A stretch of 64,000 nucleotides of DNA from Fluviicola sp. (lineage in GTDB: Bacteria > Bacteroidota > Bacteroidia > Flavobacteriales_D > Crocinitomicaceae), in assembly GCF_039596395.1 (NCBI RefSeq), contig NZ_JBCNJT010000002.1, forward strand, positions 620,001 through 684,000, written 5' to 3'. Positions 3,868-37,189 of this stretch are shown piece by piece. Below the pieces are notes generated by a model. The model saw only the letters and a list, made by a program, of their open reading frames with translations. It did not search any database and was not told where the DNA came from. Each line of letters begins with the position of its first letter. Position 1 is the stretch's first letter. Position numbers and translations under genes: made by a program.

Positions 3868-3934
3868 GTTGTGATTGTTTGGTGGTTATTAGATTTTGAT
3901 TAAACTTCATTTCTGCAAGCTTGTATTTTTTGAA

Positions 3935-4285
3935 CTACTCCTTCGTTAGGATAATAAAAGCTCGTGCATAGATGTCTCCCCCATCTGTTGAAAAACTAAT
4001 TATACGAAATCCTTCTTTTTGCCATTTTGTGATTTCTTGCTGTATAATTACACTATTCTCTAATGTTTTTTCAGAATAGTTGCTAAAATTGTGTCCTGAT
4101 AATGGAACAACTTTTTTGTCTCCATTTGGAGTAATTATCATCATACTCGAATTTGTTGCGCCTGTCTTTGCGGACTCTATAGTTCGAATGATTACTGTTT
4201 GAGGATTTTCTTGTTGCGCATTAGCGTTATAAATTCCCAACAACATCATTGTTGTGATAAGCAAGATTAATTTGGCATTTTTCAT
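3935..4285 (-). CDS. Small Sec-exported hypothetical protein inside the Tc operon
   Basis: This is a 116-residue protein whose first 24 residues (MKNAKLILL...IYNANAQ) form a clear Sec signal peptide ending in ANAQ. The mature part is about 92 residues, with a predicted beta-rich core and a final GDIYARAFIILTKE. I chose the ATG at 4285 because it gives a compact signal peptide and follows an A/T-rich Bacteroidota-type leader. An in-frame ATG at 4327 shares one base with the tcA stop (TAATG) and would add 14 residues, which could mean translational coupling. I do not recognise the family. It sits between tcA and tcB, whose products lack signal peptides, so this is the only exported member of the operon seen here. 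It could be a chaperone, envelope anchor or immunity-like factor, but nothing in the sequence decides this. Confidence 0.75.
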   Translation of the reverse strand: MKNAKLILLITTMMLLGIYNANAQQENPQTVIIRTIESAKTGATNSSMMIITPNGDKKVVPLSGHNFSNYSEKTLENSVIIQQEITKWQKEGFRIISFSTDGGDIYARAFIILTKE

Positions 4286-4326
4286 GATTTTTATTTTTTT
4301 AATGAAATTAGTTATTAAAATAAACA

Positions 4327-13300: not shown

Positions 13301-14244
13301 GGGTATTGGAATTGGTAAAAGGTCAGGGCCGAATATGTATCCCAGTCCTGAGTATCTTCATTGTACATAAAGAGTGAACCATCCGGATCAATTCCGATTC
13401 TTGTGACCGTACCAAGCCCTGTTGGAGTCAGTGCAATCGGGTAGTAAAGCCCATTTCCATAAACGCAAAGTTTTCCTTCATGAACCACCAAAGTCGTGTT
13501 CATGGTATATAAAACAGTGCTGAGATCCGGAGTAGCAACTTTTAAATAAACATTTTCAGAAGCAATGGAAGGAGTTCCGTTTATTTTTGTGTTTACAATA
13601 AATTCATCACTTGTTTTCACGCTAACCGGAAGGACCGGAACAACTATTTCCAAATAACCTTCGTTAACCGATGCGACAGAGGCACTGAAAAAGCTTTTGG
13701 AGATAGCATCGATCAATCCTTCATAACTGCATAGATACCCAACCGGTAAAGGACGCTCCAGCTTCTCTGATTCTTTAATGCTAAACAGAATGCTGTTTCG
13801 GGTAGTCACTTGTTTTTCAGCGGCAATAGTAACAGAGCTTACCGGAAATTCAAAAGCAGTAATTTGAACGGTATAAGATCCTACGTTTGTATATCCTTCC
13901 CTCAAGACAATGTCTTTGATAGGTCGGCGGGTAAAATCGTCATCTGTATAGGGGTTTTCTCCGGAAATGAGCGTTCCCTGGTAATAAACTTTCGCAAAAA
14001 CGTTCTCGATACTGCCGTCAACGAGGTATTTGGGTTCATCGTTTACGGTAAATGTGATTTCAAAATCCCCATCATCGTTAGTAATTCCCTTTCCAAGGAA
14101 GAAAACATCCATAGGACTCTTTTGCCAGAGTTCTACTTCGAGGTTTGAGATTTTTTCTAAGGATTCTGTTGATTCCGGCGTAAAAGAGGCGTCAATTCGT
14201 CCGGCTACGGTAAACTTTCTACTGTTTAGAATAGTGTTCGGCAT
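4327..14244 (-). CDS. Insecticidal toxin complex subunit TcA (pore-forming translocation subunit)
   Basis: The product has 3305 residues, well above the roughly 2500 of Photorhabdus TcdA1. Residues about 8-120 look like a transthyretin/carboxypeptidase-regulatory-like beta domain (FTVAGRIDASF, DGDFEITF), unusual at a TcA N-terminus. Around 565-590 is the VRP1-type motif CTSAVSPFSYLVDLV. Around 1750-1780 is the signature WQWLGSYATWRSAVF followed by YPENLLYPTLKRR, matching the WxxYxVWxANRxxxxYPENW region of TcA proteins. Residues about 2675-2960 are long Ala/Gln/Glu-rich helices with a hydrophobic stretch, as expected for the channel. From about 3060 comes the C-terminal TcB-binding domain (RRMETDQVALTGASRATG, NEFLNPFEGMGIESRWEF). 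TcA pentamers form the pore through which the TcB-TcC cargo passes. No signal peptide is visible. First gene of the operon; a MarR-type gene lies divergent upstream. Confidence 0.93.
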   Translation of the reverse strand: MPNTILNSRKFTVAGRIDASFTPESTESLEKISNLEVELWQKSPMDVFFLGKGITNDDGDFEITFTVNDEPKYLVDGSIENVFAKVYYQGTLISGENPYTDDDFTRRPIKDIVLREGYTNVGSYTVQITAFEFPVSSVTIAAEKQVTTRNSILFSIKESEKLERPLPVGYLCSYEGLIDAISKSFFSASVASVNEGYLEIVVPVLPVSVKTSDEFIVNTKINGTPSIASENVYLKVATPDLSTVLYTMNTTLVVHEGKLCVYGNGLYYPIALTPTGLGTVTRIGIDPDGSLFMYNEDTQDWDTYSALTFYQFQYPENLTVFADGMYEAGGSVGTITSGTLGDATFAPFSISVENTGVFPIDIDLTVQGPGGVGTFFSGVIHDLLPGSKNFTVIQTSAFWDTQSDSPTLNDIETISGTTFSTDLIDFLEDENLDTMDTLKKAGPIRYIDGLPDVEDSELTLLQAHVDLYTVNRDAEQNQFMISNGYTNLSKIANTPKDVFIDGVESVAITLYDAAKIHDTVAQNHKLLSNLLVGKLGDYELKTHYIPDIENSNFAQTAFSKFINRCDCEDCTSAVSPFSYLVDLVKYGAKHISKASIPSYSPINYNAFLTLLEDYFFQPFGSFSVDCDTLHKEYCRLRLVTEILEQYVATKTLPTEVLERLENDRKNFLLLTYKTILVQSGTSYEELRSIVAIQDLDDKKEAAQRFADKLGILLYAPPSTTQYTADRMWLTFDNASAAQELTAENLEIIYGFRDTERDVLTNPAEALVLTWKNEYLLETWKKVDYYFSAYSREGVDPGNDLTFKAEWKPIIDPDMIGRGDMTYKSSDFALDLWRHRKENTDIFLSYFASDEEILSRTSADIHGRILRVPGINLSGVNFLDNKIRLQDPSDSEFKDFELFNVSLNGANTDLRLKKSTPEVSQLALFQPEGDTPVMRYDNVVSVINPLPDDDSAITLIWDGPAIQNYLVGGRAKLISSGSPLVFNTENTIGFYTMTVSSVSVTPGGTEVELVLGSDLPAEFVAGNVSFIYEAEVLLDTTTIPDPEKICTKLFEKSFEYDYLNPAPAGMIDPFTYTIGEAPLTWPGSIDTEPTYYTKLKKLYEIIRSGDTAEAYMDLITENLYTDAFGFSVFMENLIACEQYLDSMYSVDKPESSQFYQTASIFRNSARTRLNTIWVKEEINHIPTGGTDPEKLMLDARFFWKALNEPSTGSWDPSLQTIPDNYLEITSSNVAIIDPELVSRDRLLISPDAEPYIDLYDTRQEQLEDKRTEYFSLLVPFNAAGFKRILNEINTGDQLTNYDINPPYADMTALITAFQSNDAFVKQEAIEVLNDAFALTPEEFSLIIPVMTAYQDADPSNQPTPVELRSVADLLVTACKRKQMYFTDNMGNGWILPEISMGIKYYNVFQLRMDPMRGNSQDRSLWQQTLAKWNRVPTVFPDIVPPENIKKFVQGETVHDIWVERKQTLDMAFDQLSLFFNDSFTAAELFTSIQSLLSVMISRSTTGGVGTEYLHYFTDLFEKEDAGEDIRPYLNQLAIQIAEYRVLRQIFEVLKAENYNAPTLPSNLLPSEYDDLINIVIRINLITTGYFEFIQQEYAENIVLQGEDFQNYTPAIINFPINLVQDTQQWRSPNADKKAWKDTLNTRIERKEKVTEAWNSVIEETEDITLPVMRDALIQALRNNCESFDQAAERIAKTLFIETKDNCCVKHSRVSHAIETLQGLIFALEAGIYDDYLNGFSFSAPNFDKEWQWLGSYATWRSAVFTYIYPENLLYPTLKRRQSPAFIELAETIQNANRFTPIDACKAAKKYQAYFEDIQNLKLVCTANTDAYIFRKDPLDCCGDMNNSMREYMTFYFSQSTLTDKVYYSSKAFYATDPNEHDFWIEIPIRKKATILGCLPISSEFDDNGKATNATLWLFYTFKEDGEFKLAYLKKDLMTAGSEWAEEETLELPDLTEVTYSDAYQGIQGPFSSSPDTINYSLLNNLDVLTQITVCQHSIEWDFVNFVLSYKRWNGVMRHIVIRYMPKDDFFDTNIGNLIFLENDKLPITGVVHNITTSVANLNALTGITVVFKNEIRTGYFGSLSGLVPIIPVSLSYANIIGVFKKDQSHDTFVVANRDNSGFTKYTEVYGTFTNNPLVLNLHQSALTADTFNKNVLSIAPRFNSSVWESANAVTIYNENILSGVIFRINMTSLGAVLAFALAPEKSVTVQIESGDCIDNFDLRTTNIKLHMRANLNAPQGNPAGSLFRTNSIKEVLYEAYYFVPMLIALDQQQRGDYPTALDWYQSVYDYTNNLASKRKIFYGLVLEESIVNVFDRPSDWLLDPLNPHLIAQTRVNAYTKYTLMNIIQCMTAYGDREFTIDTIETVPNARKLYTEVLDLLKVSELNVKPSQCYTSSHACFETAIEAPVDLYWSNAFVQLQSELEGLNSVAWINEASSELVTIFNGESSMQEKFSSGFTFLSEFKDSHPVEAADSVTELMDGIGSRMDDAYRYLLAGLDTQSFNNVVGAHFTNTLATLASSTADEVSSPLNQGKISWLRNPIPPNANVLNVNFTTSSGTQLLKNPDLAYNPFQPAPAALQANLVFANASALYHPFLYAEDYVPFVDYAFCLPSNPVYAALELKANLELFKIFNCRNIAGMERSLDIFAAPTDSVSGVPVIGAGGNLVLPGVANLAPSQYRFRVLIERAKQLVSQAQQLESQFLSTLEKEDAENYSLLRAKQDLQTAKATVKLQDMRVKQALNEETVADLQLDKVEFMQSTYDNWINAGLNAYELISIILLNVSAGLQTNAGAAALTPAGKFDLVGSFNSIAGAISTTASVMSQMASYQRRSQEWQFQSDLAGYDISIANQQIKIAEQNTRIVSQEREIASMNMDHATDTLEFLKTKFTNAELYRWMGNVLERTYSYMLSIATAVARTAEQQYYFEQQEQAGPFILNDYWEVPQTGALTLTGGGGDRRGLTGSARLLQDLTRLDQYAFETTKRKLQMTKMISLGQHFPDAFQTFRETGVLNFDLTNRLFDYDFPGHYLRLINGVKVSVIGLVPVYDNIKATLTAGTTSYTVIEANNTFQRIPIRRMETDQVALTGASRATGMFELQPMQNEFLNPFEGMGIESRWEFKMPKFSNRMDFSNIADVVIEVEYTALDSFQYRFQVLQDIDNTLGFSRGFSFKNDFPDQWYELAQAQEGNTSFYVDFELKPEMFPAGVDNIRLDGSNVLLHFARKDGFTDEISIADFSLITAGNNAQPMDGVTVNGIFSANALSNVLNTQSPATPFVKLRLAFANTPINRELFSQEHVTDILVLVSCKADLPIYPL

Positions 14245-14835
14245 GGTGATTATAATTTAAGTGTTACAATAAGTTGTTGTTTGCAATCTAGTTACAAAAA
14301 ATAAAAACGCAATTCCAACTATAATTATTTCTTTTTGAGATTGTTAAAATATGTTATAGCAAAATAAATCTTCAGAAGCTTGTTAACTGATTGTTGCAAA
14401 GATGCAGGCGGAAGACCGTAAACTATTTACGCCATGACTAAAATAGTTGTATGTTATGAATGTCCTCAGCCAACTCCTTGTTCGATGGTGGTCGTGTCCC
14501 CGCTACAAAGAAAAAAGCGTAATTACGAAAGTGGTTACGCTTTTTTCTTTCCCTCTAGTCTCATACTCATTCTGAAACGCTTTTTTCTCAGAGCGAGAAT
14601 TGAGAATGAGAGCTTGCGTAACAACTAATTTGTAGAAATCACCACTTTTCACAACAAAATCCATATCGGGTATACATCCAATTTATAGATCGTTTGGGTT
14701 ACTGGGGATTAGAAAGATGTGGATGACCGTTTGAGAATTTTTTTGATGTGAATAAGTATAACTAAGTACTAAATTTTTATTTGTAACTAATGATATCTGC
14801 CATTTATGGTATATTTATATACTAATAATTACTCA
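14245..14835. other. Intergenic region between tcA and the MarR-type gene
   Basis: These 590 bp hold no convincing gene. The divergent promoters of tcA and the MarR-type gene must lie here, but I find no perfect TAnnTTTG box; near matches occur in the T-rich stretches beside both starts. The middle (about 14450-14610) contains strong inverted repeats, one of them terminator-like, which is unexpected between divergent genes and may mark a small RNA or a dispersed repeat. Confidence 0.5.
14507..14550 (+). terminator. Strong hairpin with T-run
   Basis: A perfect 16-bp inverted repeat: AAAGAAAAAAGCGTAA (14507-14522), a 12-nt loop, then TTACGCTTTTTTCTTT (14535-14550). The GC-containing inner stem next to a T-run fits an intrinsic terminator, readable on either strand. 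A second inverted repeat, CTCATTCT/AGAATGAG, follows at 14566-14610. No upstream plus-strand gene is visible for it to terminate. Confidence 0.6.
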
Positions 14836-15513: not shown

Positions 15514-15591
15514 ATAAAGTGGATATGTAAAGAAAGTAATATTGTTTCATCCTCTGCTAACTCCTTGTTTGGTACCGGTAGTTAATTATTA

Positions 15592-15627
15592 GTAACCGAT
15601 TATCATTTTTTGGTTACCGTTTTTTTT
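15592..15627 (+). terminator. Possible terminator downstream of the MarR-type gene
   Basis: GTAACC (15592-15597) pairs with GGTTAC (15612-15617), followed by CG and a run of eight T. The stem is short, so support is modest. It overlaps the tail of the RHS fragment on the other strand. Confidence 0.35.
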
Positions 15628-16171
15628 GTTCCCAAATTTTCGAATGTCGCACGTTCATCCCAATAGTTATCGTTTTCATAATCGCAACCGCCTCATACAG
15701 ACTCGCTGAACTTAACACCACTTCGTCAACGTTGAAAGTGCTTGCAACGGTAGTTGTTGGCTGGATGACGATATTGGTAGATGCGGCATTCGCAGTAAAG
15801 GTGATGATGTTCATCTGACCGCTTACCAAGGTGTAGTTGGTGACTACAGTTCCCGCGCTCACTTTTAGATTGGCTGCAGTCCCTTTATTGGCGCGGATAA
15901 ACAACTGGTAAGTAGTACCGGAAACAGTAGTAAAGCTTCGCTGTACAAAATTGTTGCTTCCCGCTGTAGTGGTAACGTTCAGGGTTCCGTAGTTTGCAAC
16001 CGGTGTACCGGCATTGGAACCGGCTGTCCAGCCATCCACCGTATTGGAATTAAATACATAAGCTGTTGCATTGGCGTGCGTGACTTTGCGATCGGTGATC
16101 ACTGCATGCACGTTCCCCAGGTAATTGGTCAACTCGTAGTTTTTCCTTCCCAGTTTGTTTTTGTAGAAGCC
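15603..16171 (-). pseudogene. Orphan fragment of the RHS protein C-terminal region (copy A)
   Basis: Bases 15673-16171 are a near-identical copy of 20370-20862 in the intact RHS gene. They encode the stretch from FYKNKLGRKNYELTNYLGN through the carbohydrate-binding-like beta module (NTVDGWTAGSNAGTP ... NVDEVVLSSASLYEAV). Upstream of FYKNKLG the homology stops abruptly. Downstream, the copy loses the DYYPFGM motif and the RHS core and joins unrelated sequence. The literal frame ends ...MKTITIGMNVRHSKIWEQKKR; a different frame continues as ENDNYWDERATFENLGTKK and stops at 15603, which may be the end of a displaced toxin. There is no start codon of its own and no full core, so this is a displaced cassette remnant. 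Confidence 0.8.
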
Positions 16172-16214
16172 CAGCTTTTGGTAAAATGTTTTGGGCGCCT
16201 GCTGATCAAACCAT

Positions 16215-16320
16215 TTCGTTCCTCATGGTTTACCAGCACCGGGCTTTCCGCTTTATCTCTTCCGGATCAATCAGAAGAGGATGCCGCTCCAATCCCTGGC
16301 GCGGGAGTGAAGTAAACCAA
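16215..16320 (-). ncRNA. Possible structured RNA element (resembles a Bacteroidota intergenic RNA such as Flavo-1)
   Basis: Read on the minus strand, this contains CGCCAGGGATTGGAGCGGCA, then a small hairpin CTCTTC...GAAGAG, then AAAGCGGAAAGCCCGGT. The pairing of blocks GGGATTGGAGCGGCATCC and AGCGGAAAGCCCGG around a variable hairpin is one I recognise as recurring between genes in Bacteroidota. I recall it as similar to the Flavo-1 RNA motif, but I cannot confirm the family without a covariance search. It lies between the membrane immunity candidate and RHS copy A. Confidence 0.4.
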
Positions 16321-16438
16321 TCGATTATTGTTTCAAAGGCTCGTCCTGGTTTTATGTATCGATTTTATTCCAGTTATCTTTTTAGTTTTTAAGAAGCATC
16401 CATCAACTTACCTAAAACATTACCAATATTCTTAACCA

Positions 16439-16843
16439 TTAAAAAATGAAAAAAACCAAAAATAAGTACCAAGCTACATTGAATAAAGAAGATATAAGCA
16501 TAAATAATCCCCAAATTATATAAAACTCTTTGAGATTCTTCTTTAAAAGAATGTGTATATCAGGCCTCAAAGCCAAAACTATATTTTTATTTCTTTTGAT
16601 TACATGATAAGCTAGTAAGAACAGTAAAGAAATAGTAATTATTATTGAAATACCTATTTCAGTTTCATTATGTAATGTTCTCTTGAATATTAGAAATAAG
16701 GGTATCAAAAAGGGAAGTGCAATAATTCCCAAATCTGCACCTTTACGTTTATTCATGAAACTTTGACTGAAAAAGATCACGATTCGGATATTTATTAGTA
16801 AAGAATTTTTGGTAAGTTGATTATAAATGAATTTCCAGTCCAT
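16439..16843 (-). CDS. Small membrane protein, putative immunity protein of a displaced RHS toxin
   Basis: The 134-residue product has about three hydrophobic segments: residues about 38-54 (LGIIALPFLIPLFLIF), 63-81 (IGISIIITISLLFLLAYHV) and 108-134 (FYIIWGLFMLISSLFNVAWY...). A basic loop lies between the last two. I do not recognise the family. Its ATG is 39 bp after the stop of a probable toxin-tail reading frame (16883-17075), itself joined to an RHS fragment. That is the spacing expected of a toxin-immunity pair, so I infer that it protects against a toxin now lost. A membrane immunity protein would suit a membrane-targeting toxin, but that is speculation. A/T-rich, unlike the neighbouring RHS DNA. 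Confidence 0.6.
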   Translation of the reverse strand: MDWKFIYNQLTKNSLLINIRIVIFFSQSFMNKRKGADLGIIALPFLIPLFLIFKRTLHNETEIGISIIITISLLFLLAYHVIKRNKNIVLALRPDIHILLKKNLKEFYIIWGLFMLISSLFNVAWYLFLVFFIF

Positions 16844-16882
16844 AATGAATTCGAAATAATAAAAACAAATGTAAGAGATTAG

Positions 16883-17445
16883 TCATTTAATCAATACATT
16901 ATAAGTTTTCGAGCCTTTTACTGTTTTTGAAGGAAGTAATTTCTTTAATGGAATTGTTTTGGGATCAGAATAGCTAAAAGTGAATACTCTAAAAAAGATT
17001 CTGTTGGGATAGCTATTCTCCAAAGAAATGCCCTTTAAGAAAAACATTCGTTCATACATCATGATACGTCCCAGCGCATACCAAATGGGTAGTAGTCGAT
17101 TTCATAAGGACAACCGCCTCATACAGACTCGCTGAACTTAACACCACTTCGTCCACCTTGAAAGTGCTTGCAACGGTTGTTGTTGGCTGGATGACGATAT
17201 TGGTAGATGCGGCATTCGCAGTAAAGGTGATGATGTTCATCTGACCGCTTACCAGGGTGTAGTTTGTGACTATAGTTCCCGCGCTCACTTTTAGATTGGC
17301 TGCAGTCCCTTTATTGGCGCGGATAAACAACTGGTAAGTAATACCGGAAACCGTAGCAAAGCTTCGCTGCACAAAATTGTTGCTGCCCGCTGTAGTGGTA
17401 ACGTTCAGGGTTCCGTAGTTTGCAACCGGTGTACCGGCATTGGAA
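16883..17445 (-). pseudogene. Orphan RHS C-terminal fragment (copy B) with toxin-tail remnant
   Basis: Bases 17076-17445 repeat the RHS module of 20340-20707 almost exactly (QRSFATVSGITYQLF ... VDEVVLSSASLYEAVVLMKS). After MKS a single base is missing relative to the intact gene: shifting frame recovers DYYPFGM followed by RWDVS and a stop. The third frame is open from about 17075 to the TGA at 16883 and reads ...MMYERMFFLKGISLENSYPN...PLKKLLPSKTVKGSKTYNVLIK, which I interpret as the C-terminal end of a displaced toxin domain. The upstream end of the homology stops inside the beta module. The fragment has no start and is frame-broken, so it is a silent or decayed cassette. Confidence 0.75.
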
Positions 17446-17524
17446 TCGAACGTGCAAGTAGCGTTAAATAACGTGGTAACCGCATTGCATTAAAGGTGAT
17501 GATTGATAGCACTACTATAATGCC

Positions 17525-17947
17525 CTACTCAATTTCTTCTATCAAAGTTTCCTTTTCTTCAATTTCGTTCTCATCATGTACGGTTATTTTCTCAATTCGT
17601 TCCCTATTATCTCTCAGACATCTCATACAAGCCTCACCTACTGTTGTTATTCCATATTTTTCAGTTTTGATAGATTCAGAGCTTCCGCCTATGGCTATTT
17701 CAGTTAAAATTCTTAATGGATACAGACGATTAACGGTGTATTCCTTTTCCATCAATTCAAGAATAGGTTCAATAACATAATAAGCAGCTTCGTATAAATC
17801 CGATTGGACAACAACATAATTATCAATATTCCAATATGCCTTGTGTCTTTCTTCCTCCAAAAAAGAACCTAAATGTTTAATTGCTTCCGGAATGTGGGTT
17901 GCATAACCCACTCCTGTTTTTATTTTGCTCCAGCCAATATTTTCCAT
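17525..17947 (-). CDS. Orphan HEAT-like immunity protein
   Basis: The 140-residue product contains the block AYWNIDNYVVVQSDLYEAAYYVIEPILEL (residues about 37-66, described here by its key residues W-N-x-D-N, V-V-Q and E-A-A-Y-x-V). I recognise this as a recurrent pattern of HEAT-repeat-like proteins encoded next to polymorphic toxins in many bacteria. The rest is predicted helical (LGSFLEEERHK, RLYPLRILTEIA, GEACMRCLRDNRERIEK) with an acidic C-terminus. No signal peptide, so it acts in the cytoplasm. The toxin expected just upstream is missing; a decayed IS1-family transposase occupies that place. It therefore looks like an orphan immunity gene kept after its toxin tip was displaced. Confidence 0.65.
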   Translation of the reverse strand: MENIGWSKIKTGVGYATHIPEAIKHLGSFLEEERHKAYWNIDNYVVVQSDLYEAAYYVIEPILELMEKEYTVNRLYPLRILTEIAIGGSSESIKTEKYGITTVGEACMRCLRDNRERIEKITVHDENEIEEKETLIEEIE

Positions 17948-18030
17948 TGTAATTCAATATTCTTTATGTATTCAGACTATAAGCTCTTACAATCAGTAAT
18001 GTCACCCGTATTGAGCCCTAAATTTAGACT

Positions 18031-18530
18031 TTATTCCCAACAATAAATCTTCACAACCGCTAAAAGCATCGCTAGTGATTTCGAATAACAAATGGTACTG
18101 CGGTTCAAACGTTTCAGGTGCGTTCGCAGATTCAGGTTTTGCTTCTCCCAACGACAAAACTAATAACTTCACCGGTTTCCGGGTTTAAAGAATATGCGAT
18201 ACAAATACGATTGTTTTTACTACTGACATACGTGAATAATTCATCTACCTGGTAGGTTCTTCCGACTGGAACGGGGTTTTTCCCTTTGAATTTCGTGCAA
18301 TTCTCAGAATACGTCTTATTACCGTTGAATTGGATATTTGCAATAAACGACCGGTACTCCTGATTCCAACACCTTCTTTTACTAGATTTATGATCTCAAC
18401 GTCTGACACCAAATATGAATTGTAGGTATACCTTTCTTGTTGATATTTATTACAGTCAATGCATTTGTATCGTTGGCGCTTACCGGTTTTTCCTTTTTTA
18501 ATACAAGATTCTGAACTGTCTACATTTCAT
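18031..18530 (-). pseudogene. IS1-family transposase remnant (frameshifted and internally deleted)
   Basis: Conceptual translation across frames gives the parts of an IS1-type transposase in the right order: KKGKTGKRQRYKCIDCNKYQ (zinc-ribbon region), LVSDVEIINLVKEGVGIRST and LLQISNSTVIRRILRIA (helix-turn-helix), then after a +1 shift VPVGRTYQVDELFTYVSSKN and RICIAYSLNPETGEVISFVV (start of the DDE domain). After another shift and an apparent deletion comes WEKQNLNLRTHLKRLNR and the C-terminal STICYSKS... to the stop at 18031. The first Cys pair is degraded. At least two frameshifts plus the internal deletion make it inactive. Terminal inverted repeats were not identified. Confidence 0.82.
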
Positions 18531-18766
18531 GAGGTGCACGTTGAGAACAACTGGTACGTAAACACGGTGTTTTGGATACCTCGTTTCATTTGTTTTCGCT
18601 CTTACCAGGTAAAGACAACCCTCCAAAAGAAAAACCAACCCGCAAATACGAGTTGGTTTTCAGTAATTTATAGTTGTAATATCTGTTCAGATGCAGATTG
18701 AGAACATTACCCGGAACATTACCTAATTTAATAAGCATTAGGTAAATTGTACGATTATCACTACCG
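18531..18766. other. Intergenic remnant with two small hairpins
   Basis: No gene is seen here. AAAACCAAC (18631-18639) pairs with GTTGGTTTT (18652-18660), a terminator-like hairpin. TTACCTAAT (18719-18727) pairs with ATTAGGTAA (18737-18745), 22 bp after the stop of the immunity gene, and could end the RHS operon transcript although no T-run follows on the minus strand. Confidence 0.4.
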
Positions 18767-19198
18767 TTACCTGTTTAATAGAGTTTCAATTCCCTCTTTT
18801 GCGACTTTAGCAACCTCAATATTTTTATTTTTTTCGTACTTCTTCAGTATATCCAAATATTTCAAGTTTCCACTTGCTATCAGTATTCTCAGAAGAAGGA
18901 TAAAGGATGAAGGATCAGTTATATCATCAATATAAGATAATAATTTATCATAAGGCTCATCTGAACAAGGAAACCAAGACCAATTATATAATGTTTGAAA
19001 CATTTCATACTGAATATCAGTAGAATTTTCAACTATTATTGCATCAACAATAGTTGTTATTACTTTGTAAGTAAACTCTTTTTCTGGATTAATCCAATTA
19101 TACTTTTCCTCAATTAAGTCACCTAATTGCTCTAATACTTTCAATTTTTCCTCGGAAGATTTTCCTTTCAGGATTATATTTTTTTCATTTATGGCCAT
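18767..19198 (-). CDS. Putative cognate immunity protein of the intact RHS toxin
   Basis: The 143-residue product is acidic and predicted all-alpha, with amphipathic helices such as KVLEQLGDLIEEKYNW, YKVITTIVDAIIV, SSFILLLRILIAS and VAKVAKEGIETLLNR. The last resembles a HEAT/armadillo unit. No signal peptide. The start overlaps the end of the RHS gene by 10 bases (ATGGCCATAA), the tight coupling typical of RHS toxin-immunity pairs. I do not recognise a named immunity family; the role is inferred from position, size and fold type. It is the last gene of the operon. A small hairpin follows its stop. Confidence 0.7.
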   Translation of the reverse strand: MAINEKNIILKGKSSEEKLKVLEQLGDLIEEKYNWINPEKEFTYKVITTIVDAIIVENSTDIQYEMFQTLYNWSWFPCSDEPYDKLLSYIDDITDPSSFILLLRILIASGNLKYLDILKKYEKNKNIEVAKVAKEGIETLLNR

Positions 19199-22100
19199 CT
19201 ATATATATTTTGATTTGGAATATGAGTGTCATTTGCAGCCCCAGCATTATAATTAGGATTAGGACTTCCATCTCTAAAAGTAGCTTTTAAAGTGCTTTCA
19301 TGATGCCAAACTCCATTAATATCTAAATATTGTGTTCCGGTACCTTGTCCATTTACTCTTCTTAAAGCTTGCCTTGATACTCTATAAATAGGTCCACTAG
19401 CTGAATTTGTACCTATTGGAGCATTAACATCTGCTGCGTGGGAGCGAACAGTATATTTATAGCCACCACGATTAAATGAGACTTTACTATTAATAGGTAA
19501 TTTAGACGGGAATGCTACCATTACAGCATTTATTATAGCTATAGGATTACTCCATTGATCTCCAACATAGCTGAATAAAGCGCTTACTCTGTCTCCATTT
19601 GCATAATCTATTTGCCATTGTTCTAAGTGCAATTTAGCCCCATATCCGAATGAGGTTACCGAAACAAACTCATAAGTATTGACTTCCTTTTCAAAATGAT
19701 CGAGCTTATCTCTTCCAATTATATAATCATATCGGGCCACTTCTTGTGAAGGATTTGAAGGGTCATTGACCATTGTATGTGCAACATAGTGATCTAATTT
19801 ATTATTGATGTAATAGGGAACAATAGTATACATACCAACTTTAAATCGTTCACCCATGTGAGCATTTGCAGCAGGTATTGCACCACGCGAATCTGCAACA
19901 TCATAAAATTCTATGCCACCTTTGTATTTTCCAGATTTAATTTCAAATTTACTACTATACATTGTTGTTGAAAGTTTATCTCTGCCATATGTTTTAGATG
20001 CTTTAAAATAATAATTCCCCTCCTTCCCTTTAATATTTCCAACCTCATATCCAGCGTCACGAGCACCTCTTCGTGCTTGGCGGGCTTCTCTTTTAGTTTC
20101 ATACAATCCACTTGGATCATTAAATAAAATCGGATTGTCAAAAAATGCACGATAAGGAGACCAACCTGGAGCCTGTTCGGCTAATGGATCAGGTGACAAC
20201 CATCTTCCCAATCGCGGGTCATACTGCCTGAACTCAGTCGTATAGCTGGATCCCGGGATACCCTTCATTTCATCATCTTTCTCCATACCGTTGTATCCAA
20301 ATCGGTATTTATCGCTATTGGTAAACCTTCCCGGCATCTGCATACCAAATGGGTAATAATCCGATTTCATGATAGTAACAGCCTCATACAAACTCGCAGA
20401 GCTTAAAACTACTTCGTCCACGTTGAAAGTGCTTGCAACGGTAGTTGTTGGCTGGATGACGATATTCGTAGTTGCAGCATTGGCAGTGAATGTCAATATA
20501 TTCATCTGACCGCTTACCAGGGTGTAGTTTGCGACCACAGTTCCCGCGCTCACTTTTAAATTGGCTGCAGTCCCTTTATTGGCGCGGATAAACAACTGGT
20601 AAGTAGTACCGGAAACAGTAGTAAAGCTTCGCTGAACAAAATTGTTGCTTCCCGCTGTAGTGGTAACGTTCAGGGTTCCGTAGTTTGCAACCGGTGTACC
20701 GGCATTGGAACCGGCTGTCCAGCCATCTACCGTATTGGAATTAAATACATACGCCGTTGCATTGGCGTGCGTGACTTTGCGATCGGTGATCACTGCATGC
20801 ACGTTCCCCAGGTAATTGGTCAACTCGTAGTTTTTCCTTCCCAGTTTGTTTTTGTAGAAGCCAGCCGGTTCATCAAGTGTTTCCCCGTCCTGGTTCGTGT
20901 AGATCAGCTGGTCCCGGTTGATCAAACCGATGCGCCCGGTTCCATAGATCATTTGCTCGTTTACTTCAGCGGTCTTCACGCTGTTGCTGGTATTCATTGT
21001 CACATTGTAAGTAGCCATGACCTGCCCGTTGGCGTCATAGGCATAATAGGTGTAAATCCACGGTTCAGTGGCGGTTTGTGCCTGAACAACTCCGCTCACT
21101 ACTTTCTTTTGAACCTTATAGATGCGCTGCCCAAAAGGGTTATATACGAACTCCAATTGTTTGGTTGCCGACTTTTGGATCGCTAATTTTTTATCGCCCT
21201 TGCGCCAGGTATATGTTTGGTTGGACTCAGCGTTGTAAGTCAATTGGCCGATCTGATCGTAGGTGTAATGGACACTGCCGGCCAGGTCATTGATATCGTC
21301 CGTATATAGCGGTGTTGTACCTTCACTATCAGCTACTTTTTTAAGCTGGTTCCTGCCGGTGTTGTAATCATAGGTTAAATTATCCATCCCGAGACCAAGC
21401 GCTGTGGTTCCTTTTCGCACCAAAGTGGTCAAATTACCATTCTTGTCGTACGTATAGGAGGAGGCGTATTCGGGTGTATAATATGCATCGTTCCAATTAT
21501 TAGAAGCCTTCAAATTGACCGTTGACCGGTAAACAGCAGTGTTTTTCAGGCGCTGCAGCTGGTCGTAAGTATACACACTGGCCTGATTTTCAAAGCCCGT
21601 AATGGCTGTGGTAGTGTGAGCGATATTTCCATTGTAGAGATTCTTGCTGGCACTTGCAAACGGATTTGAAGTTCCGATAGCCGCCAGGAAACTTGTTGGC
21701 ATAATACTGGAGTAATCATTGGTGAAATACCCCAACGTATAGGCTGTAACATCCTGGGCAAACAGCGCATTGACTTGCTGGTTCACCGGTAAATAACCCA
21801 TTTTACCATCCTTGCCGGCATCCCGGTTGATATCAATGGTCGTACCGTTCATGGATTTCATCCAGCCATTGATCGTATAACTGTAATCGTTCCCCTGCAC
21901 TTTGTGCTGCCCGATCTCAACACGTGCCAGCGGGCCGTAATCAAAATAACGGTAGTGGGCATCCCGGTTCATATCTACGCCGTAGTTCGTACTGGTAAAT
22001 ACTTCTGCGAGGCGATTCAGCTTATCGTAGAAATACTGGTGGGTCATATTATCCCGTTTACCTTGCTGGTATTCTACTTTCTTCACATTTCCACTCAGTA

Positions 22101-25100
22101 ATTCAAACTGGTACTGTGTGGATTTGATATCCTGCTGGACGTCGATCATTGCTGGTACATCCTGGAGGGATTCAATGACATTGCCGTGAATATCGTAAGA
22201 ATAATGCACGGCCGAAACATACCCGCTAGTTGGCATGGTGGTCGCAGTGACTGTCTCAAAGTAAACCACTGAGGCAACACGCAAGCGCAAATTTTGCTGG
22301 GTTCCGGTTGCAAATTTGCCAGGTACTCCCGGAATGACTTGTTTGTCGTAGACCGTATAGGTTACTTCTGTCCGGGCACAGGAATAAATATAAGCTTTGA
22401 AGGCTGCATCCAAATCATCCTTTTTCAAGGTATTCTCATCCAAAAGCGCCCTCAGGCCATAGTAAGGAGTTCCATTTTGATCGTAGTGGTCAATGTAATC
22501 CCGGTCTGCCTGACCGGATTCTACAGGCCGCCCGTAAATGTCATATAAAACATAACTATACTTTTTGTCAGCTGCCTGAGCGGCATTTTGAGAAGCTACC
22601 AAACGTCCCAGACGGTCGTACCAGAAGTTGGTTGCTCCATCATGGTCCGGGTTCATGGTACTTACCAACTGATCATATGAGTTGTATTTATAAGTAGTTT
22701 CGTACGTATTGGCAGGGAAAGGTGATAGAGACCCGTAGGTCGATACCATCGTAAAATTCGTTGAACTGATCACACTATTTCTTGCAGCATCCACATTTGT
22801 TTGATCGAAAAGAGCAGGAATCCCTTTCGGCGCGATTGTCTTAACCAGGTTCCCGGCCTGATCGTAATAGAATAAGGTGTAGTGGTAGTTGTTCGAAGGC
22901 CCGGTATATCTTAATTCTTCTGTAGAGAAAACAGAGGCACATGCCGCATTGTAATCTTTCAAATAGGATTCATATAAGGCTTGTACGGCTGCCTGATAGC
23001 TATTCCATGCATTCTGGTAAATCTCATCCAAACGAGGCTGATAGCACAAGGTACTATTATCAAATGGCTCGTCACATAAGGTCAGGCCTTCCGGGCTGCA
23101 AATACAATCGATCATTTGGAAACAGTTACTAGTACCTATCAATTCTGCAGTTTGCATAAGTCCGCAACTGAGATATTGGACAGTAACCTTAAAATCTTTC
23201 GGATTACCACAACCCTCCGAAAGAGGTGCAATACTTTCAAAGGAGACGATATCCTCAAAACCGAATGGTGCATTGTCCGGCAAGGTTAGAGTAATGGCAC
23301 AACTGCCAATTGCCTCATCTCCCCAGCGTGTTGTTAGCGAATTCCCGTTTAGAGAAGTCCAATAATTATTTCCCAGCAAGTAATTTTTCAGGCTGCCTGT
23401 TGCATACACAATATTATCAGTCAGTAAATTAACTGCTGTAGGACTTATTAATGTTCCCCGGAAAGTGATCAATTTCATGACTGATACCCATTCCTTTGCC
23501 TGTGGGGTAGCATAACAATAAGGATTCTCCGAAGTCGCACTGCATTTCTGCAGAAATTCATAATAGTCCGCATAACTTAGCTGGAACCCTAATTCGAGGT
23601 TTAAATAGTTGGTTAAAATAATCGAATAATTAGCTGAATTTTCGAAGCCCGATTCAGATGAAAACTGATCGTGCAAATCGTTAATTAGATTTCCAACTTC
23701 ATTGCAATCCGTACAGTTGTCCGGTTTACATGCTATAGTTGCGGGAATGCTGTATCCATAAGCTGCCAATGCAGGAGTAGATCCTGTAGGCCAGTTAACC
23801 GCATTCGGAACATACGGATCTTTATAAACAGCTTTACAAGCACATAATAAATAGTGCGCATCTTCCAGAGAAACTCCTGTGCGAGAGGCAATTAATTGTT
23901 CCAAATTGAAATGACTCGGATTATTGATACCGTGCGCAATATCGTACTCGGCAGTCATGATCACATCACAGGCACATGGGTCCAACGGGCTTGAAGCAGC
24001 AAGGGTCATTGTTTCCGTGCTTGCAAACGGTGCGGGCTCTGAGATCAAAAGACCGGTACAGGTACTTGTCATTGGAATTCCATAACTGGATAATACAGAT
24101 TGGATTGTTTGTCCGCTGGAAGAAGTGCTTGCTCCCATGGGATGAGTGCTGCTGCAGCCACTTGCGCATAAATCTACTAAACTTGCATGTAAACTGGATA
24201 CGTTAACCCCTGCCAAATCGCAGTCGCCCAATAAAGCCAGCCATTGATCTGCGTAAGCTACACATGCATCATGACAGGACTGAGCAACCTGATCATCCAA
24301 ATAATCTTGCCCTTCTGCTTGTGTTAATCCTGTTCCATCTTCCGGGTTCCCATCGCCATCCATATCCGGCAATGTTTCCATATTACCAAAAATAGAGGTG
24401 TAATTCTCCCATCCTGCATCAACACCAATGGATGGTACCGACGGACAGCCGGCATGAATTGCCTGGTAGACATATCCTTGTTTGGCTTCTAAATATAAGT
24501 CCCTGAAAGTAACCCAAATCAGGTCGTTGAAACAATCTGACTTCTCATTTCTGAAATTGGCAATACACGTGGCAATATCTCCGCTTCCCTGGCAGTATGC
24601 ATAGTAAATCGCCATGTGCCACATGCTGAATCCCGAAGACTGGTAGTTGTTCATTTCACTATTCATGGCACTGGCATAGGAAGCTCCTACACCTGTTGAA
24701 GCAAAGAAAGGATCAATGCCCGAAGTTCCGTTACAAAGAGACATGGGCAATTGAACAGGAACCGTATTGGAAGTAAGCGGATGAAAATACCCGGCAGCAC
24801 ATGCTTCCGAATAAGTATAAGTAGCCTGCAATTCGTTATCGTAATCATAACTATCTGATAAGGTAGAAGTTCCTTCACAGCTAATGTGATAGTAGCAATA
24901 TTCCGGGTGTAAATACAGTAATGAATTTGCCCAGCTAGGTTGGAAATTCTGGATAAATTGTGCCATTGTAAGACTCTGAGGAGGTACCCCGTTTACCAGG
25001 GCCGGGTTTCCGTTTGCATCCAAATAGGGCGGAGAAGGATTTTGATACCCATAACCCGTTCCCAGTCCATTATTGGTGAAAATACTATGACTTCCGGGAA

Positions 25101-27333
25101 TAGCAGAGTATACTCCGCCACTCAGGTTAAATCGGGCATATTGGCCACCAAGCGACATATCGCGCAGCATCATTTGACGATAATCCTCGCATTCATTTCC
25201 GGACTCCGTTGCTAATTCAGGAGTACATTCCGGGAAAGTTTGCAGTACATATTCCTGGTTGAAATACGAACTCAAAGGATCCAGGCAGGAATTATTATCA
25301 ATGTAATAACACCAATTTCTGTATATAGCATCCTGATTGACTGATAATTTTTTAATAATCTGATATTCTCCAACTACCAAAGGAACTGTTTGTGTAAATG
25401 AATAAGGATCCTCATCGTTACACAAATTGGTTAACTCATCTCCATTGATTGGTTGACTTTTTTGGTAGACTACAGCTCCACAATCGTCAAGAATTCGAAA
25501 ATCCAGGTTATAAACACAATCCAGGCAGATATTATCAGCCATGCAGGAATTGTGAAATTCGGCAGGTGTAAATCCGTAATAGAAATCAAAGTCAGCATCG
25601 GCTGTTATGAATTGGAGGGAAGTAAATGTTGCCGAAGGAATAATGTCCGTAAGAGACTGCTCACTTTGAGGTAAAAGCGGAATGGTTTGTGTAACCTCCC
25701 CGTTTCCTTCGATCATATCTAATGGATCCGGATTCTCTCCTGCCATATAACTGGCAACCACACGTCCGGCCATATCTGTAATTTGAATGTAGATCTGGCC
25801 ATTCGCATCAATGGTTACCATTTTGTTGTAATGTGTTGCTTTACCAACTTCCGCTCCAAACAGCTTATCAAGCTCGTATTGGTTCACATCCGGATAAAAA
25901 AACTGGCTTTCATGCCCTGAACCGGTTTTAAGCGTTCCACCGGCTCCGGATACTAATTTTAAACGTCCGGTAAAATCATCGGTATAAACTTGCCGTGTAA
26001 AAGGGAATTTTTCAGCATCGGGAACTCGTTGATTTGCTCCTGTTTGGGTATTATTTGCCGTTGAATAGTATTGGCCTGCCCCTTGGTTGGTCGCAAACCC
26101 GATTCCATCCGGGTTACAAACATCCGCATTTTCATTGTCGAAATACTGCCAGCTGTAAGGAATGGTATTATCTGCTTCCGTTCGGTTGAAATTGTCTTTA
26201 TGTGTTAAATCAATTCCTCCCGTAGGTGTTGGTAAGTCTGCTACTACAGCTCTTCCCACCTGGTCGTAATAAATGTTCGAAACAATAGATTGGTTGGTCT
26301 CCGGATTGATCGCAATGCTCTGGTGGACCTTCCCCAAACCATCTGCATAACTCACCGATTCAAATCGGCTTCCGTCATCATCATAAGTCACTTGATGCAC
26401 CCAGTTCATACCGGACTGGAATTCACCGATTATAGGAATAATGTTCGAATTATGGGTGGTCAATACTCCGGATTCATTCGCATTTGTCCAGGTTCCCTCC
26501 TTTCGGATATTAAACTGGGATCCCGTAAATCCGATAGGGCGGACACGGTAAACAATATAACCACCATCAAATACCTTAGGAATTGAGTAGGAATTTCCTT
26601 TAACAACCACTCGGGTAGCATTCAAATAATAATTATAACTAAGAAGGTTCATGGCAACAGGAGTATTCACATCAGCTGAAGCATTGGAAATGTGTGACCA
26701 TTCCAATTCGTAGTATTCAGCTCCCCACTTTTGATCCCAGGCAAACTGAATCAATTCCGTATTACCTGGATAGACACTGTGATTTAAACCTGTTACAGCA
26801 TTGTTATTCAGGGTATAATAGCGTTCAACTTCCGTTTCCGCAGAGAGAAAAATCGAATTAAATGATGGTAATCCCGAATAACTCGTAATGAAAACCTCTA
26901 TTTTGTAAGCCCCTTTTAGAGTACAGGAGGAAATTTCGTCCAGGATGTCCGTAGGACCTGCAGATGGGTTTGAAAGCGATAACGTTCTGTTTTCAGTGGT
27001 CACACTGAAACCGCCTCCGACTGCATTCCATTTCCACAAATTTAATTGCAAGGTAATGCTTGCGTTGGGGTAAGAGGTGGTATGGATCACATCCGGGTTG
27101 ATCCCGAAGCGGATGGTATTCGTGACGTTTGCATTGTAAAAGTTCCAGGAAGACGGCAATGTCGTTGCCATAGTATAATACTTATCGTCATACAATGTCA
27201 GCGCAGGTGTTGAATAGGAGGCCGTTAAAGTCCCTGAACTGCCATCAACCCTCGCCACAAATTTTTCAACTGCTCCAAAGGCCATTTGTCCGAACTGGAC
27301 TACTAAAACTATAGCTAATATTAAGTGCTTCAT
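19189..27333 (-). CDS. RHS-repeat polymorphic toxin with variable C-terminal tip
   Basis: The protein has 2714 residues. Residues 1-20 form a Sec signal peptide (MKHLILAIVLVVQFGQMAFG). About 330-400 contain YD-type strands resembling the N-terminal domain of Bacteroidota RHS proteins (VSYADGLGKVHQS, NIYYDQVGRAVV). A Cys-rich middle (about 600-1450) may be disulfide-bonded after export. RHS/YD repeats occupy about 1480-2150 (YDRLGRLVASQN, YDIYGRPVESGQ, YTYDQLQRLKN). A beta module resembling carbohydrate-binding domains spans about 2190-2315, then DYYPFGM, RFGYNGMEKDDE and the core end RQYDPRLGRWLSPDPLAEQ ... FNDPSGLY (about 2406). The last 308 residues are the tip, with a WHHE motif near 2676 and NDTH near 2700, possibly nuclease-like but unassigned. 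Starts 11 bp after the SpvB-like gene; the immunity gene overlaps its stop. Confidence 0.9.
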   Translation of the reverse strand: MKHLILAIVLVVQFGQMAFGAVEKFVARVDGSSGTLTASYSTPALTLYDDKYYTMATTLPSSWNFYNANVTNTIRFGINPDVIHTTSYPNASITLQLNLWKWNAVGGGFSVTTENRTLSLSNPSAGPTDILDEISSCTLKGAYKIEVFITSYSGLPSFNSIFLSAETEVERYYTLNNNAVTGLNHSVYPGNTELIQFAWDQKWGAEYYELEWSHISNASADVNTPVAMNLLSYNYYLNATRVVVKGNSYSIPKVFDGGYIVYRVRPIGFTGSQFNIRKEGTWTNANESGVLTTHNSNIIPIIGEFQSGMNWVHQVTYDDDGSRFESVSYADGLGKVHQSIAINPETNQSIVSNIYYDQVGRAVVADLPTPTGGIDLTHKDNFNRTEADNTIPYSWQYFDNENADVCNPDGIGFATNQGAGQYYSTANNTQTGANQRVPDAEKFPFTRQVYTDDFTGRLKLVSGAGGTLKTGSGHESQFFYPDVNQYELDKLFGAEVGKATHYNKMVTIDANGQIYIQITDMAGRVVASYMAGENPDPLDMIEGNGEVTQTIPLLPQSEQSLTDIIPSATFTSLQFITADADFDFYYGFTPAEFHNSCMADNICLDCVYNLDFRILDDCGAVVYQKSQPINGDELTNLCNDEDPYSFTQTVPLVVGEYQIIKKLSVNQDAIYRNWCYYIDNNSCLDPLSSYFNQEYVLQTFPECTPELATESGNECEDYRQMMLRDMSLGGQYARFNLSGGVYSAIPGSHSIFTNNGLGTGYGYQNPSPPYLDANGNPALVNGVPPQSLTMAQFIQNFQPSWANSLLYLHPEYCYYHISCEGTSTLSDSYDYDNELQATYTYSEACAAGYFHPLTSNTVPVQLPMSLCNGTSGIDPFFASTGVGASYASAMNSEMNNYQSSGFSMWHMAIYYAYCQGSGDIATCIANFRNEKSDCFNDLIWVTFRDLYLEAKQGYVYQAIHAGCPSVPSIGVDAGWENYTSIFGNMETLPDMDGDGNPEDGTGLTQAEGQDYLDDQVAQSCHDACVAYADQWLALLGDCDLAGVNVSSLHASLVDLCASGCSSTHPMGASTSSSGQTIQSVLSSYGIPMTSTCTGLLISEPAPFASTETMTLAASSPLDPCACDVIMTAEYDIAHGINNPSHFNLEQLIASRTGVSLEDAHYLLCACKAVYKDPYVPNAVNWPTGSTPALAAYGYSIPATIACKPDNCTDCNEVGNLINDLHDQFSSESGFENSANYSIILTNYLNLELGFQLSYADYYEFLQKCSATSENPYCYATPQAKEWVSVMKLITFRGTLISPTAVNLLTDNIVYATGSLKNYLLGNNYWTSLNGNSLTTRWGDEAIGSCAITLTLPDNAPFGFEDIVSFESIAPLSEGCGNPKDFKVTVQYLSCGLMQTAELIGTSNCFQMIDCICSPEGLTLCDEPFDNSTLCYQPRLDEIYQNAWNSYQAAVQALYESYLKDYNAACASVFSTEELRYTGPSNNYHYTLFYYDQAGNLVKTIAPKGIPALFDQTNVDAARNSVISSTNFTMVSTYGSLSPFPANTYETTYKYNSYDQLVSTMNPDHDGATNFWYDRLGRLVASQNAAQAADKKYSYVLYDIYGRPVESGQADRDYIDHYDQNGTPYYGLRALLDENTLKKDDLDAAFKAYIYSCARTEVTYTVYDKQVIPGVPGKFATGTQQNLRLRVASVVYFETVTATTMPTSGYVSAVHYSYDIHGNVIESLQDVPAMIDVQQDIKSTQYQFELLSGNVKKVEYQQGKRDNMTHQYFYDKLNRLAEVFTSTNYGVDMNRDAHYRYFDYGPLARVEIGQHKVQGNDYSYTINGWMKSMNGTTIDINRDAGKDGKMGYLPVNQQVNALFAQDVTAYTLGYFTNDYSSIMPTSFLAAIGTSNPFASASKNLYNGNIAHTTTAITGFENQASVYTYDQLQRLKNTAVYRSTVNLKASNNWNDAYYTPEYASSYTYDKNGNLTTLVRKGTTALGLGMDNLTYDYNTGRNQLKKVADSEGTTPLYTDDINDLAGSVHYTYDQIGQLTYNAESNQTYTWRKGDKKLAIQKSATKQLEFVYNPFGQRIYKVQKKVVSGVVQAQTATEPWIYTYYAYDANGQVMATYNVTMNTSNSVKTAEVNEQMIYGTGRIGLINRDQLIYTNQDGETLDEPAGFYKNKLGRKNYELTNYLGNVHAVITDRKVTHANATAYVFNSNTVDGWTAGSNAGTPVANYGTLNVTTTAGSNNFVQRSFTTVSGTTYQLFIRANKGTAANLKVSAGTVVANYTLVSGQMNILTFTANAATTNIVIQPTTTVASTFNVDEVVLSSASLYEAVTIMKSDYYPFGMQMPGRFTNSDKYRFGYNGMEKDDEMKGIPGSSYTTEFRQYDPRLGRWLSPDPLAEQAPGWSPYRAFFDNPILFNDPSGLYETKREARQARRGARDAGYEVGNIKGKEGNYYFKASKTYGRDKLSTTMYSSKFEIKSGKYKGGIEFYDVADSRGAIPAANAHMGERFKVGMYTIVPYYINNKLDHYVAHTMVNDPSNPSQEVARYDYIIGRDKLDHFEKEVNTYEFVSVTSFGYGAKLHLEQWQIDYANGDRVSALFSYVGDQWSNPIAIINAVMVAFPSKLPINSKVSFNRGGYKYTVRSHAADVNAPIGTNSASGPIYRVSRQALRRVNGQGTGTQYLDINGVWHHESTLKATFRDGSPNPNYNAGAANDTHIPNQNIYRWP
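20340..20862. repeat. Parent copy (C) of the triplicated RHS segment
   Basis: This part of the intact RHS gene, encoding the beta module and flanking YD sequence, is repeated at 15673-16171 (copy A) and 17076-17445 (copy B). By eye the copies differ only at scattered bases. All three lie in the same orientation, so recombination between them could swap or delete the intervening tip and immunity genes. Confidence 0.9.
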
Positions 27334-36926: not shown

Positions 36927-37189
36927 GATGAATGATTTTCAAAAAATAAAATTAGTGCTTTTGCGATGAATATACTTTCCAATTTTTAATACAACCTTTA
37001 GGTGCAGACGGCTTAAACTATTAGGGTCGTGACAATCTAAATCTACTAAGTTAAACTTAGTATCAATATCTCCAGCAATTGCTTCCCCTTGTACGGAAAA
37101 TCGCAACTCACTTGTTTTAAGTATTACTAAATCATTTTACTAAAAGATTAGCAAGACACATCTTTGTAGAAACTTTTAAACTTAAAACA

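Follow-up and report, generated by a model that had tools for sequence, protein, structure and literature searches.

The window analysed here is a stretch of 64,000 nucleotides from a Fluviicola sp. genome (Bacteroidota; Flavobacteriales_D; Crocinitomicaceae), covering positions 620,001 to 684,000 of contig NZ_JBCNJT010000002.1 in assembly GCF_039596395.1. It carries an intact RHS gene followed by relics of its core, small open reading frames (ORFs), a broken IS1-family insertion sequence (IS) and a Flavo-1 RNA, and all features discussed lie on the minus strand. The main RHS gene (19189..27333; 2714 amino acids, aa) comprises a DUF6443 region, an RHS core ending in FNDPSGLY and an Ntox30-like tip. 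It matches PF20041 (34.7 bits; cut-off 27.8) and PF15532 Ntox30 (36.1 bits; cut-off 25), and by its TIGR03696 match (52.7 bits; cut-off 32.5) it is a full-length RHS gene with a core and a C-terminal tip. Overlapping its end is a 143-aa gene (18767..19198), which by its position is the putative immunity gene of the current tip.

Three copies of an RHS core segment

A segment from the end of the core, before DYYPFGM and with an inserted all-beta domain (the beta module), is present in three copies in one orientation. Copy C (from 20340 or 20362 to 20862) is part of the intact 2714-aa ORF and encodes the beta module together with DYYPFGM. Copy B (17076..17448) is a relic of the beta module that extends to the DYYPFGM codons, which are shifted by one base. 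Copy A (15671..16171) is a truncated core relic in which the gene's reading frame stays open to about 15614, giving 202 codons between stops; it is cut before DYYPFGM, and the sequence that follows is unrelated. Neither A nor B has the final 240-260 bp of the core or any of the tip. Alignment of the copies gave identities of 94.0% for A/C (501 bp), 95.0% for A/B (359 bp) and 90.4% for B/C (374 bp). A search of the genome itself with copy A returned three long matches and a weak one (82% over about 70 bp, at C1:458548 in another RHS gene), so A, B and C are the only long copies and no other locus of the genome has the long repeat.

The copies are separated by A/T-rich DNA (26-38% GC in 500-bp windows), which holds small genes that are unlike each other by eye. 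Upstream of copy B lies an orphan gene of 140 aa (17525..17947), immunity-like by position and with no core or tip attached. Copies B and A are separated by a 59-aa ORF that follows copy B (16883..17062) and is a possible tip remnant, and by an orphan gene of 134 aa (16439..16843), hydrophobic by eye and a possible immunity gene. A preliminary description of this DNA had reported three near-identical RHS copies in one orientation, alternating with small unrelated genes in A/T-rich DNA, and the alignments and base composition bear this out, with the addition that an IS1-family remnant and a Flavo-1 RNA also lie between the copies. It had further taken two of the small genes for immunity genes and seen a toxin-tail remnant next to one of them. 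The genes are immunity-like by position and the 59-aa ORF at 17062-16883 is a possible remnant, and a family search recognised no family in either case.

The beta module of copy C was modelled with AlphaFold as an all-beta structure (mean pLDDT 68, four sequences). The best Foldseek match of this model is a carbohydrate-binding module (CBM; E 4e-5), and as predicted the fold resembles such modules. The module is an optional insert of RHS genes, and neither of the two RHS cores at L052, an RHS locus of a related genome, has one; copies A and B are mostly module as a result of their truncation. These results do not support the earlier idea that the module is itself the unit of exchange. At another locus (L064, on G009:C30), two tandem beta modules lie in one RHS gene, at 10001-10519 and just upstream.

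The differences between copies A and C are unevenly distributed, with 4 mismatches in the first 300 bp and 26 in the last 201 (Fisher's exact test p 8e-8, with the cut chosen post hoc; maximum chi-square permutation p 2e-4). For the stretch common to all three copies, the first 151 and the last 201 positions contain 1 and 26 differences for A/C (p 0.001), 6 and 27 for B/C (p 0.012) and 6 and 10 for A/B (p 0.044), where the permutation takes sites as independent and three copies cannot prove the direction of a mosaic. Copy C is 98.7% like copy A upstream of a switch at about 20606-20536 and 87% like it downstream, and this mosaic structure places the boundary of a crossover or conversion inside the beta module. 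On the simplest reading, the tip-bearing end of C would have come from another RHS allele by crossover or conversion in the module. Of the A/C differences, 24 are synonymous (4 in the 5' part and 20 in the 3' part) and 6 are not (all in the 3' part), so the two 3' versions diverged mostly while coding.

We compared the locus with RHS loci of relatives. TIGR03696 finds 54 cores (two under the cut-off) in 12 of the 14 genomes of the genus; several of these cores sit in short open frames (91 to 836 codons), some of them at the end of a contig. At L052 and L055 the main RHS gene and a small gene are followed by an orphan core fragment that carries a separate tip and small gene, and the fragment at L052 is 88.5% identical to the main gene over 1353 bp. 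Orphans that lie downstream, are homologous to the core and share its orientation are thus represented by A and B in the window and by larger ones at L052 and L055. A family search with the four tips and four small genes of these two loci found domains only in the main tip of L052 (PT-HINT being the best). The earlier notion that old tips are kept downstream as orphan cassettes describes L052 and L055, where core, tip and gene are still together, better than the window, where no recognisable tip lies behind copy A or B. Repeats are also found downstream of the RHS core at L054 (7391-9227, on G002:C19); one of them resembles L053 sequence and the PT-HINT part of the L052 main tip, and is perhaps a duplicated pretoxin-HINT segment.

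Between main genes and orphans of L052 and L055, high identity fades at most about 60 bp from DYYPFG (DYSPFG in L055). Two comparisons at L056, one of them just 82-98% identical ahead of the fade, and one at L059 show the fade about as far ahead of RLGRW or the core-model match. None of these five comparisons shows a sharp break immediately past DPxGL, high identity being lost earlier in each. An identity of 65-85% persists at L052 up to DPLGL and then drops to chance, with a similar loss at L055. The suggestion in the preliminary description that the exchange point may lie upstream of DPxGL thus appears largely right, given the mosaic boundary in the module and the fade before DPxG in relatives, and is tempered by the identity that L052 retains as far as DPLGL. 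Copies A and B are the extreme truncated cases.

The IS1-family element, its left ends and Flavo-1

Between the 143-aa and 140-aa genes sits a broken IS1-family element (18031..18712), whose transposase is found in three tblastn pieces and whose left end, GGTAATGTTCTCA, lies at 18711-18699. Aligned to relatives, it has an internal deletion of about 145 bp, and its HTH_Tnp_IS1 match (20.1 bits) is under the cut-off of 24.9. An IS1-type left end, GGTAATGTTTTAGGTAAGTTGATGG, is found at 16400..16424, 15 bp past the stop of the 134-aa gene, and a degenerate one (GTAGTGCTATCAATCATCACC...) at 17492..17515, between the 140-aa gene and copy B, with 91.7% identity over 24 bp to the left ends of L052 and L050. 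The three left ends of the window therefore follow the 143-aa gene, the 134-aa gene and, in degenerate form, the 140-aa gene. The transposases of two relatives, both of those tested, exceed the cut-off of 100 for the NCBI IS1 model NF033558 (141.4 and 133.7 bits). D114, D171 and E196 are invariant in ten transposases and are read as the putative catalytic residues.

Transposase matches in the genus (22, merged by position into 17 elements) are concentrated at RHS loci: 15 of the 17 elements lie within 5 kb of an RHS core, a zone that makes up about 0.84% of the genus genomes' sequence, and all 15 are on the RHS strand. The two others are on G009:C21, where the element abuts the contig end, and on G012:C13, a true exception. 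A search of 299 genomes of the order gave 16 matches outside the genus, 11 of them with an RHS core in the fetched stretch and on the same strand in every case (11/11); among the five without one, L098, L106 and L110 abut contig ends, and L103 and L111 are true exceptions.

The left end has the form GGTARTGTT and also occurs without a transposase, just past putative immunity genes in the genus. The exact form stands between cassettes in 7 of 16 mapped loci, namely the window, L052, L055, L056 and L060 in the genus and L100 and L104 outside it; both these 16 loci and the 21 used for counting left-end positions were chosen out of more that were fetched. A longer, looser form of the left end has 31 occurrences on the RHS strand and 2 on the other at the 21 loci. 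Among the 31, 27 have an ORF stop no more than 400 bp upstream, 2 are located in ORFs and 2 are without such an ORF; 19 of the 27 are -4 to +65 bp from the upstream ORF stop, and five overlap the stop. A 13-base form has 47 matches in the genus, of which 11 are near RHS and all on the same strand, a result of little weight by itself, and one RHS-near match, inside an RHS gene, is probably due to chance. With one mismatch allowed, the window has 2 matches to this form against 0.82 expected, which is no commoner than chance. Cassettes are thus bordered by IS1-family left ends in the genus and, outside it, at two mapped loci, and the association of transposase and RHS holds across the order, with left-end borders mainly in the genus. 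Other repeats occur between ORFs downstream of the RHS genes at two loci of G011 (L046, 8333-12380; L047, 11468-15526), where four copies each of a repeat of up to 170 bp (GTGGTCAA-type) are present; the G011 repeats of 150-170 bp have no match to the IS1-type ends.

A Flavo-1 RNA (RF01705; listed in a table of PMC2864571, the part of that paper drawn on here) lies at 16233..16305, 61 bp upstream of copy A, and passes the gathering score of 42 narrowly with 42.1 bits. Flavo-1 precedes orphan core fragments at three loci, the window, L052 and L055, and in the genus 4 of 10 matches are within 5 kb of an RHS core (150 candidates scored per genome out of 588-1012). None was found at the gathering score in nine further loci. 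The copies of the window, L052 and L055 have in common a 3' extension ending in GCCCAAAA, which is also carried by a partial copy in G012 (L059); the fourth RHS-linked copy (L077) and two copies away from RHS are without a 3' extension of the GCCCAAAA type.

Explanations for the locus

We read the locus as an RHS tip-displacement array in a Fluviicola genome with IS1-family ends bordering the cassettes, and consider this explanation, taken whole, to be probable. Its parts differ in strength. That the locus is a displacement array is highly likely and recombination within the module is likely; whether the IS1 ends are active border-makers and not passengers is nearly balanced, leaning slightly to the negative. 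The full-length RHS gene would bear the current tip and its putative immunity gene, and the remains of at least two earlier cassettes, as core fragments A and B with retained small genes, would lie downstream. New tips may enter through homologous recombination in the core, and the current tip would have brought the diverged 3' segment now joined in the beta module, a direction that goes one step beyond the mosaic seen in copy C. Displaced cassettes would decay, losing their tips and core ends, with immunity-like genes persisting. At the left end, the transposase may trim DNA up to the immunity gene in the manner of an IS1-type adjacent deletion, which would leave a transposase or a solo end near the next core fragment. 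A wider proposal, which we regard as speculative and rather unlikely, is that an IS1-family transposase has become a fixture of RHS loci in Flavobacteriales, with left ends that mark cassette borders and an action, by one-ended transposition, adjacent deletion or circle formation, that makes, trims and possibly moves tip-immunity cassettes.

Several results weigh against the displacement array with IS1-family borders. The exact GGTARTGTT is absent between cassettes in 9 of the 16 mapped loci (L059, L099, L101, L102, L105, L107, L109, L112 and L113). The right-end repeat AACAYTACC was found in none of the 16, target duplications not having been systematically sought, and with no right end found it is by inference that the transposase is taken to make the borders. 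The left-end motif was derived from these same elements, which makes the counts post hoc. The A/B pair also reaches p 0.044, so the site permutation may overstate the significance of the mosaic. The immunity role of the three small genes is putative and follows from their position: none has a match over the cut-off in Pfam or NCBIfam, and among 395 Bacteroidota genomes, this one included, the 143-aa gene has 8 weak partial matches besides itself and the 134-aa gene one weak match, none of them convincing, and the 140-aa gene matches itself alone. As one genome per species was compared, this species is represented by a single strain, and the tip exchange by repeat recombination that had been proposed for the locus, to which the mosaic of copy C relative to A and B lends support, is supported with that qualification.

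The strongest alternative, which we hold to be plausible and somewhat less probable than its negation, is a displacement array of the classical kind known from Enterobacteriaceae, in which the IS1-family element and Flavo-1 would be passengers that gather where the intergenic DNA tolerates them. The absence of exact left ends from more than half of the mapped loci favours it. So does the published record, as far as the parts drawn on here extend: the layout fits C-terminal displacement (PMC2935791), a main and orphan pair in Salmonella has 95% identity over 522 bp (PMC3967940), and IS elements have been reported to interrupt orphan cdiA-CT genes (PMC3150448). A passenger, however, would be expected in both orientations, and the constant RHS orientation inside and outside the genus (where an RHS core is present) counts against it, as do the few copies elsewhere (2 of 17 in the genus, one at a contig end, and 2 true exceptions among 16 outside) and the location of left ends at ORF stops.

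The remaining alternatives concern the copies themselves. A tandem duplication of the RHS 3' end with later deletions, in which tips were never exchanged, would account for the common orientation, close spacing and high identity, but the small genes behind the copies are dissimilar by eye, identity between main gene and orphan is at chance past DPLGL in L052, with a similar loss in L055, and copy C is a mosaic; we consider it improbable. Slightly more improbable still is a mobile or duplicated CBM-like domain that spread independently, its location beside a toxin gene being incidental. The repeat does mostly coincide with the optional beta module, which is absent from the L052 cores, doubled in one RHS gene of G009 and predicted to fold like carbohydrate-binding modules. 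Its borders do not match the domain, however, since copy A starts in the core before NYLGN and copy B ends past DYYPFGM; the long repeat is found only here in its own genome; and L052 repeats core without the module, with other core segments repeated in L055, L056 and L059. RHS-gene repeats are commonly misassembled, yet an assembly artefact is extremely unlikely for copies that differ by 5-10% and have unique flanks, within a 1.46-Mb contig of a genome scored 100% complete.

Genomic setting and known systems

The RHS region sits, by one comparison with G013, at what appears to be a variable site. Along the era-der flank, identity to G013 is 81% as far as window position 37090, past which the neighbouring genes differ between the window and G013, two being leucine-rich-repeat-like by eye; a short flank (15549-15656; 74%) is found again 6 kb off in the same comparison. 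The flanks of a MarR-like gene, at 14491-14597 and 15549-15656, resemble L058 at 9803-9916 (88.6%) and 7812-7924 (74%), where the counterparts surround another gene of G013. One flank is in part also similar to the other flank's counterpart, which looks as though genes had been exchanged between shared flanks. The gene upstream of the RHS gene (27345-33755; 2136 aa) matches no Pfam family. L043, L044, L045 and L050 each begin with a relative of its C-terminal part, ahead of RHS genes, so the gene may be a partner of the RHS gene. Tc-like neighbours occupy positions 1-14244 on the minus strand, with a 3305-aa TcA-like gene (PF18276, 204 bits; PF20220) and an SpvB/TcdB-like gene that continues past the window edge. 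A further RHS core lies outside the window at G000:C2:617574.

The H-repeat of E. coli Rhs belongs to the ISAs1 family, from which the present element differs in being IS1 by NF033558 in relatives. The two are alike in that an IS-like element is tied to the C-terminal tips of rhs loci (PMC3032704, in the part drawn on, as for the papers below). In the rhs arrays of Enterobacteria (Jackson et al. 2009, PMC2935791), recombination between identical core segments has been proposed, together with a circle, and the main gene is followed by dissociated cassettes of core fragment and tip, as at this locus. The Fluviicola locus is unlike those arrays in belonging to Bacteroidota, in the fade before DPxG, in the IS1-family element by the cassettes and in the loss of orphan tips in the window. 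The Salmonella rhs-main and rhs-CT-orphan (Koskiniemi et al. 2014, PMC3967940) likewise have about 500 bp at about 95% identity in common; evidence was obtained there that recombination fuses main and orphan, and the orphan toxin is active, whereas copies A and B are tipless and the Fluviicola array is known from sequence.

Sequential displacement with retained immunity genes is also described for the orphan immunity arrays of the Vibrio cholerae T6SS (PMC5361080), which involve another secretion system, and the parts of that account drawn on describe no IS border ends. Recombinase genes such as XerC/D are neighbours of some polyimmunity loci (Zhang et al. 2012, PMC3482391); for these strings of immunity genes too, no IS1-type border ends were found in the available part of the account. 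A transposase is named in the legend of a figure on Bacteroidetes TANFOR toxins (PMC7073777), so it is not new for this phylum that transposases lie close to polymorphic toxins, and IS elements, recombinases or transposases near such arrays were noted earlier in the parts drawn on of PMC3150448, PMC3482391 and PMC7073777. The graveyard of displaced cassettes is therefore real and, as far as the passages drawn on go, of a known kind (PMC2935791, PMC3967940, PMC3150448, PMC5361080, PMC3482391). In the open literature searched, no paper combining Rhs, IS1 and Flavobacteriales was found, and a search for Fluviicola and Rhs gave only works judged unrelated from their listing; within the open papers searched, a regular IS1-family element with ends at cassette borders looks new.

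Gain and shelving of tips at RHS loci have so far been explained by homologous recombination with a proposed circle (PMC2935791, in the part drawn on). A low-copy, RHS-oriented IS1-family element whose ends, within the genus, lie at stops of putative immunity genes would provide a concrete enzyme and a border sequence, and could mark shelved tips and orphan immunity genes. If the proposed role is true, the element would be an IS1-based counterpart of the E. coli H-repeat, supplying the enzyme for the circle model of tip displacement.

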